Assembly: GCA_035709005.1 (NCBI GenBank)
Contig: DASTFB010000077.1
Span: 23,102 to 87,101, forward strand
Direction: 5' to 3'
Source: Candidatus Methylomirabilota bacterium
GTDB lineage: Bacteria > Methylomirabilota > Methylomirabilia > Rokubacteriales > CSP1-6
Length of the DNA stretch: 64,000 bases
The notes beneath the pieces are model-generated. The model searched no databases, was not told where the DNA came from, and worked only from the letters and a program-made list of their open reading frames with translations. The position numbers and the translations under genes were made by a program. Positions 26,600 to 27,395 of the stretch are shown here, in pieces; positions within the stretch are counted from its first letter, which is position 1; each line of letters begins with the position of its first letter.

Positions 26600-27325
26600 C
26601 TACCGGCGGTCCTCGGCGTCCGCGGTGCCAAGCCAGAACGGACTGCTCTTGCCAATCTGCTCGAGGTACGCGCGACGCTCCGCCGCCCGGCGCGGGTACC
26701 AGGTCGAAAGGTAGTTCGCGTCCAGCATGTGGCGCCGCGACTCCGTGCCGAAGAAGCCGGCGAGGGCGGCCAGCGGAATGAAGCCCTCCTCGGCGCGCGG
26801 CTGGAACGCCGGCCACCGGCGGGCGTGGTCTTCCGACCGGAAGAGGTTCATGCCCGTTCAGAGAAACGGTGGCCGGCCGCGGGACGGCCCGAAGCCGTAG
26901 TTGAGGTGCCCGACCACGCCGGGCGGGTCGACACCCACGAGGCGACCATCGCGCATCTCCACGCGCACCGGGTCGCCGCAGTCCAGACACGGGGCGTCGA
27001 TACGAACCGTCTGGCCGGGAAAGAGCCACGTCACCGAGGTGGCCTCGAATCCACACTGCGCGAACCAGTGCTGGACGCCGCGCACGTTGATCCGGTACTG
27101 CGTGGGCAGGTTGTTGAGCGGCGGGAACGAGGCGATGTAGTCCGTATCGGGATGCAGCCAGCCGATCGGGTAGGCCTGCATCACGTCGTGGAGCAGCCGG
27201 CGCCCCTCCTCGACGCTCAGCCCCAGCGCGCGAGCCAGCTCGGCGTAGTGGGGCGCTCGGCCCGCCTCGATGAGACCGCCCATGATGCGCTGGAACATCC
27301 GGTCCATGAGCAGCGGATCGCCCAT
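26600..27325 (-). CDS. MerB-like (alkylmercury lyase family) selenoprotein, TGA = Sec156
   Basis: 241-residue MerB-family protein read through an in-frame TGA at 26858-26860. The N-terminal winged-helix part (RAPHYAELARALGLSVEEG) and core (HWFAQCGFEATSVTWLFPGQ, APCLDCGDPV) align with organomercurial lyase: Cys91 matches catalytic Cys96 and Glu94 takes the place of Asp99. The TGA falls on the Cys159 equivalent (PFL-Sec-TGMNLF against SFC-C-HVHFF), and 85 further in-frame residues continue the MerB C-terminal region (EDHARRWPAF, FIPLAALAGFFG). A hairpin starts 17 nt after the T of TGA. Start ATG 27325 has AAGGGAGA before it. No merR, merA or merT is nearby, so true C-Hg cleavage is uncertain; the fold and active-site layout are well supported. 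Confidence 0.8.
26821..26855 (-). promoter_or_regulatory. Bacterial SECIS-like hairpin after the MerB TGA
   Basis: On the mRNA strand, 17-32 nt from the T of TGA (positions 26844-26829) form a perfect 6-bp stem TCTTCC/GGAAGA with loop GGTC, and an outer GGGC/GCCC pair can close it. The loop sequence and its distance (nt 23-26) nearly equal those of the E. coli fdhF SECIS as I recall it (GGUC at 22-25). Confidence 0.7.
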
Positions 27326-27367
27326 CGCTCTATCTCCCTTCACTGTGGAGACACCCGGCCGACAGAG

Positions 27368-27395
27368 AGAATATCGCCACGTTCGAGGAGGTCAA
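27368..27395 (-). promoter_or_regulatory. Sigma-70-like promoter for the MerB-like gene
   Basis: On the minus strand TTGACC (27395-27390) and TATTCT (27373-27368) are 16 bp apart, about 43 nt before ATG 27325. It lies back to back with the Liv promoter in the same 151-nt divergent gap. Confidence 0.5.

Follow-up and report, generated by a model that had tools for sequence, protein, structure and literature searches.

Does a TGA codon that interrupts a MerB-like reading frame end the protein, or is it read as selenocysteine (Sec) at a catalytic position of an organometal-cleaving enzyme? The question is posed by a gene in a 64,000-nucleotide stretch of DNA (the window) from a Candidatus Methylomirabilota bacterium (assembly GCA_035709005.1, contig DASTFB010000077.1, positions 23,102 to 87,101). 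Comparison of this gene with its relatives points to a MerB-fold selenoprotein in which the UGA, at the column of MerB Cys159, is read as Sec by means of a hairpin and which cleaves carbon-metal bonds in the fashion of MerB, a reading that we consider probable.

The MerB-like frame is conserved beyond an in-frame TGA

The gene runs on the minus strand from an ATG at 27325-27323 to a TAG at 26602-26600; the original prediction had these limits right and had left the strand unstated. Table 11 splits the frame into two open reading frames (ORFs), 27343-26858 and 26851-26600, separated by a single TGA. Reading through this codon yields a 241-residue product with U at codon 156, 85 residues beyond it and a spacing of 65 between Cys91 and Sec156, all as first proposed. 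Among 120 listed database homologues (of 813 found), 118 end just ahead of the TGA column (101 identified by pattern and 17 more by reading the listed endings).

When 13 genes of the window's own clade were compared, the Cys159 column was the sole column with TGA in all of them, and the mean ratio of nonsynonymous to synonymous change (pN/pS, 78 pairs) was 0.25 upstream and 0.32 downstream of the TGA. This unique all-TGA column, with purifying selection on both sides, indicates that the TGA is not there by chance. Across 91 loci, duplicates included, the column reads TGA in 79, TGC in six and TAA or TAG in none, the other six loci being frame-broken or misaligned. A selenoprotein gene is recognised by an in-frame TGA where its homologues have Cys, and this is what we find here. 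Matches to the family occur in 48 of 95 genomes of the phylum, distant paralogues counted.

The host genome (4.59 Mb in 134 contigs, 95% complete) contains selA, selB, selC (tRNA-Sec) and selD, all over their cut-offs, with tRNA-Sec (68.9 bits) and selA lying 1.3 kb apart on one contig. The MerB-like gene likely encodes a selenoprotein, and we infer that Sec is inserted in the cell. The selD gene of this genome (L018, G000:C87:189561-190505) has one in-frame TGA of its own, and SelD itself is probably a selenoprotein.

A SECIS-type hairpin follows the TGA

Downstream of the TGA lies a predicted hairpin of the selenocysteine insertion sequence (SECIS) type, CUUCC-GGUC-GGAAG within a longer hairpin of -16.9 kcal/mol. 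The bacterial SECIS (bSECIS) model, as given in the available part of PMC13188914, has a loop of 3-9 nt, a stem of 4-16 bp, a G as one of the first two bases of the loop, a distance of 16-37 nt from the TGA and a minimum free energy of at most -7.5. With a loop of 4 nt that begins 19 nt past the TGA and a stem of 6 bp, the hairpin in the window fits this model.

In the 13 own-clade genes, third codon positions are fixed in the stem codons and variable on both sides of them. In the Cys paralogues L081 (TGC) and L082 (TGT) the stem codons are changed, whereas their TGA sisters retain them. We compared each gene with 300 synonymous shuffles that used its own codon counts, taking the loci among L023-L167 that align at the Cys159 column with a Cys or TGA codon there and dropping genes identical over the matched stretch. 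The TGA genes gave a mean z of -1.91, with 98 of 103 below -1, versus a mean of +0.12 for the Cys genes, with 3 of 18 below -1.

TGA is also found at the Cys159 column in three more groups, namely a second one from Rokubacteria, one from a single family of the same class with a CTTCTGTACGGAAG hairpin (L046, L048, L049, L051, L052 and L080, one copy having CTTCTGTACTGAAG), and one from the phylum of genome G097. A second MerB-like group, L074-L100 (for example L075, L079 and L090), is ~28% identical, has an NFFRSE motif and shows TGA with the same hairpin; it comes mostly from the family of the window's genome and includes the Cys sisters L081 and L082.

The protein has a predicted MerB fold and a MerB-type active site

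The read-through protein scores 54.4 bits against Pfam MerB (PF03243, cut-off 27) in a match that spans the TGA (residues 79-189 in the numbering of P0002, which has six extra N-terminal residues relative to the 241-residue product). HMMER alignments to MerB2 (5c17) and MerB (3fn8, 3f2g) place Cys91 at the Cys96 column and the TGA at the Cys159 column, bearing out an assignment originally made by eye. The AlphaFold2 model has a mean predicted local distance difference test (pLDDT) score of 93.8, and all 11 Foldseek matches at E ≤ 0.001 are MerB or MerB2. Fold searches of the PDB, in which the absence of other families excludes none, again returned MerB and MerB2, and the N-terminal part alone also matched winged-helix proteins. 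The model thus predicts a MerB fold.

The catalytic residues of MerB are Cys96, Asp99 and Cys159, according to the available text of PMC8261052 and PMC4525700. Departing from this canonical set, the window gene has Cys, Glu and TGA, chemically similar groups at all three positions. All 51 members of the larger clade around the window gene (see the tree below) have an acid at the Asp99 column (49 Glu, 2 Asp), and therefore a MerB-type triad remains in this clade, as judged from the alignment. A CxxC motif, the first Cys of which occupies the MerB Cys117 column, is likewise kept in all 51. Because both the acid and the CxxC are retained, the recoding touches the metal-binding residues only.

Relatives carry TGA at both catalytic columns

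The Cys96 column, which holds Cys in the window gene, holds TGA in many relatives, a feature that is not visible from the window sequence alone. Such double-TGA genes, in which we read the codons at both catalytic columns, include L043, L065, L067 and L068. Profile searches of 395 genomes from the phylum of G095 located them in 24, in two of which the gene is split by frame breaks, and searches of 400 genomes from the phylum of G097 located them in 3; with G096 and G040 the total is 29 genomes, from at least three phyla because G040 belongs to the window's own phylum. One copy sits on a 4.48-Mb contig. Behind the Cys96-column TGA there is a further hairpin, GCTRGC-5-GCYGGC, present in 32 of 33 TGA genes versus 2 of 82 Cys genes (z of -1.94 and -0.12, respectively, on synonymous shuffles). 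All 29 double-TGA genomes have selA, versus 8 of 14 genomes with a MerB-like match that lacks an in-frame stop (p 0.0005). Fifteen no-stop genomes entered this contrast; G118, a fragment, was left out, G454, whose gene has TGA, was removed later, and for 8 of the 14 comparison genomes the Cys codons themselves were read.

Among 49 full-length database proteins (47 plus P0003 and P0004), judged from protein records only, 43 have W at both catalytic columns, three have C/C, two S/W and one S/C. The full-length records P0123-P0169, with W at both columns, probably stem from gene callers that take TGA as Trp, a misreading that hides the family. Genomes G095 and G630 have three double-TGA MerB-like paralogues each. 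In two other cases the double-TGA MerB domain is fused to a second domain, guanylate cyclase (L067:6001-7185) or AAA (L068:6004-7554), hinting at signalling or regulated versions.

A tree was built by a quick method from 93 rows, each with 150 aligned residues or more, after removal of the two trait columns. Written in the order Cys96/Cys159, 46 of these genes are C/U, 31 U/U and 16 C/C, and the window's C/U clade is nested in a 51-gene clade that contains all 31 U/U genes. The tree, which cannot tell gain from loss and in which 27 of 90 inner branches are weak, requires at least four changes at the Cys159 column and at least five at the Cys96 column. Thus, each of the two sites has repeatedly switched between Cys and Sec.

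Features of the locus

Table 1 Coordinates of the MerB-like gene and associated features in the window
Feature	Position	Strand	Basis
MerB-family gene, 241 codons with TGA as predicted Sec (codon 156), then TAG	26600..27325	minus	PF03243 54.4 bits, purifying selection on both sides of TGA, predicted MerB fold
In-frame TGA, predicted Sec156, MerB Cys159 column	26858..26860	minus	HMMER alignments and codon counts
Cys91 codon TGT, MerB Cys96 column (TGA in double-TGA relatives)	27053..27055	minus	
Glu94, MerB Asp99 column	27044..27046	minus	Acid in 51/51 clade members
Cys113-Leu-Asp-Cys116; Cys113 at MerB Cys117 column	26978..26989	minus	Both Cys in 51/51 clade members
Predicted bacterial SECIS, hairpin core 26844-26829	26820..26856	minus	6-bp upper stem, apical loop GGUC, outer stem; motif goes with TGA and is missing where this column has a Cys codon
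Ribosome-binding-site-like GGGAG, 5' of ATG	27334..27338	minus	Sequence
Promoter-like TTGACC-16-TATTCT, 5' of MerB-like gene	27368..27395	minus	Consensus match only

At 26562-26380, just 3' of the MerB-like gene and on the same strand, a strong ribosome-binding site precedes a start codon whose frame meets a TGA after only 15 codons. Because coding-looking sequence seems to go on in another frame, this small gene appears to be broken.

Relation to known systems

A MerB-like family with Sec, SaoL (NF040728, MerB-like organometallic lyase), is reportedly the work of Haft and Gwadz in 2023. In the available part of a 2026 inventory, SaoL is MerB-like with one Sec in a CU motif and belongs to the Sec-assisted organometallic (SAO) system, an operon with six selenoprotein genes (PMC13188914); the text seen of PMC9312934 lists it as an 'Alkylmercury lyase MerB-like protein'. 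The original prediction, which named no characterised Sec-containing MerB, needs amending here, a Sec MerB-like family being already in print in these sources. SaoL and the present proteins are both MerB homologues with Sec, and the Sec column of L043 falls on the last column of the SaoL profile (66-159 of 159), so that the Sec site is probably the same in the two. However, the SaoL motif is described as CU with one Sec; here it is x-U, with a second Sec predicted at the Cys96 column in relatives. Unlike the described SAO operon, the genes studied here have no conserved neighbours at 50 loci, where sao genes were not searched by family. The window protein scores 34.2 bits and the 11 proteins tested (window plus 10 relatives) 30-87 bits against the SaoL cut-off of 140. 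Since these scores lie below the cut-off and SaoL is listed with one Sec, the present proteins, in which one or both catalytic Cys are recoded, appear to form a Sec clade of their own among MerB-like proteins, set apart from SaoL by profile score and motif description.

With MerB itself (NF009710, NF033555; PDB 3F0O, 3F2F) the window protein shares the predicted fold, Cys at 96, an acid at 99, Cys at 117 and the catalytic position 159. It differs in having a predicted Sec at the Cys159 position, Glu at that of Asp99 and a further conserved Cys that completes a CxxC; identity is ~20%, there are no conserved neighbours that would give a mer context, and no MerA is over its cut-off. Of the solved chains, the MerB2 of PDB 5C17 matches best in both structure (VIA) and sequence, although identity is 20% and MerB2 is without Sec. 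NF041115, a 'putative mercuric reductase' Sec metal-binding protein, is likewise predicted to be mercury-related and has two Sec, but it is of another family and motif, its two Sec lying in one UxxU rather than at two distant catalytic columns (available part of PMC13188914). A double-Sec MerB was not found in open PMC papers; the portions seen of PMC2398784 and PMC5029168 do not mention MerB, and that of PMC12013277 holds a reference only. PMC13188914, in its available part, also cites a groundwater study with a Methylomirabilota metagenome-assembled genome that has 63 selenoproteins.

Proposed reaction and its alternatives

In the reaction that we propose, the Cys91 thiolate and the Sec156 selenolate would clamp a soft metal centre, with organomercury (R-Hg+) as the leading candidate and our leading guess for the substrate. 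Glu94, in the place of Asp99, would accept a proton and deliver it to the leaving carbon, and R-H would be released. The metal would then be passed to cellular thiols or selenols, perhaps via Cys113 and Cys116, because no MerA over the cut-off is present. Relatives with two TGA would clamp the metal by selenocysteine on both sides. Compared with the sulfur equivalents, selenolates are softer and selenols are more acidic. A bolder reading, which we advance tentatively and rate a little short of an even chance, is that the cross-phylum MerB-fold clade had both metal-clamping Cys replaced by Sec, each with its own SECIS, to give a diselenolate lyase for organometals that functions without MerA; the window enzyme would be a one-Sec, one-Cys member.

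Homologues, hairpin and Sec machinery support the original interpretation of Sec at the MerB Cys159 position. Several observations nonetheless weigh against the window protein being a Sec lyase of this kind. On dinucleotide shuffles of the window's own 46 nt the hairpin energy is unremarkable (z -1.55), and the case for a SECIS therefore rests on comparison. That comparison used a test window, nt 12-36, picked after the hairpin was seen, and related genes that are not independent; in five of the 103 TGA genes no hairpin gets below z -1 (L138 stands at +0.9). A search of the whole window against Rfam, at gathering thresholds, returned no match. The presence of selA alone is weak evidence, as it is over its cut-off in 83 of 95 phylum genomes, and one TGA genome, G077 (81% complete), shows no selA. 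The curated MerB models NF009710 (28.2 bits, cut-off 193) and NF033555 (24 bits, cut-off 200) score far under their cut-offs, Glu stands in place of Asp99, and the Cys96-column residue is not strictly kept, being Ser in 3 of the 49 full-length database relatives. The gene is dispensable in places, because some copies have decayed: the frame is broken in G059, G098, G472 and G485, G050 has lost the Cys96 region to an internal deletion, and L047, L073 and L087 are fragments. A neighbour comparison over 17, then 50 loci (ORFs of at least 80 or at least 90 residues, the gene itself and overlapping frames set aside) found no family in more than 6 of the 50 or at a fixed place. MerA is over its cut-off in 2 of 95 phylum genomes and not in that of the window (best match 321.8 bits versus a cut-off of 454.45 in a 95% complete genome), merR, merT, merP and other mer genes not having been searched by family. 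With no conserved neighbours and no MerA over the cut-off, only the active site points to mercury. Finally, Sec insertion in the cell, the reaction and the substrate are all inferred.

Some MerA-profile matches below the cut-off in genomes of the phylum have one or two in-frame TGA (G086:C77:745-2106, G087:C127:14620-15984, G036:C140:2509-3822 and others) and are possibly further selenoproteins.

The absence of MerA over the cut-off, here and in 93 of the 95 phylum genomes, would also suit a Sec lyase that naturally acts on organometals other than those of mercury, such as organo-arsenic, organotin, organolead or organoselenium compounds, along the lines of the SAO system, which the available part of PMC13188914 describes as organometallic. 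The three double-TGA paralogues in each of G095 and G630 suggest more than one substrate. There is, however, no direct evidence for any such compound, and we regard this alternative as rather unlikely. It is less likely still that the MerB-fold selenoprotein has given up bond cleavage and serves instead as a domain that scavenges soft metals or metalloids by binding them, or senses them. Binding alone would not call for the Asp99-column acid, yet this is kept throughout the clade, and the alignment with solved MerBs covers the N-terminal part as well, so that this part marks no regulator.

A true stop, giving a 155-residue product or a pseudogene, would fit both the 118 database homologues that end there and the plain decay of some copies. 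We rejected it as highly improbable: the 85 downstream codons are under purifying selection (pN/pS 0.32), the column has TGA and never TAA or TAG, the hairpin is tied to TGA, Sec machinery is present, and the stop would delete the second catalytic residue. Reassignment of TGA to tryptophan or another residue (as in code 4) was discarded as having next to no likelihood, although no search was made for a tRNA-Trp with anticodon TCA. A TGA-as-Trp caller would yield the W that 43 of the 49 full-length database proteins show at the two columns, but the neighbouring long ORFs are uninterrupted in table 11, the genome has tRNA-Sec with selA, selB and selD, and in relatives read at the DNA level the columns without TGA code for Cys and not for Trp.

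Implications

The available text of PMC8261052 states that the activities of organisms with MerB but without MerA are yet to be reported and that how MerB keeps working is an open question; Sec MerB-like genes make this question testable. Such enzymes have likely been overlooked, because nearly all listed database records stop at the TGA and MerB work centres on strictly conserved Cys96, Asp99 and Cys159 (PMC8261052, in the part seen). The Cys/Sec swaps at two metal-binding residues of one enzyme amount to a natural test of what selenium contributes to carbon-metal cleavage. If methylmercury is cleaved, the demethylation capacity of uncultured bacteria would be underestimated. If the diselenolate reading is true, bacteria would have a selenium-based breakdown of methylmercury or other organometals, encoded by a gene that is now recorded as truncated.
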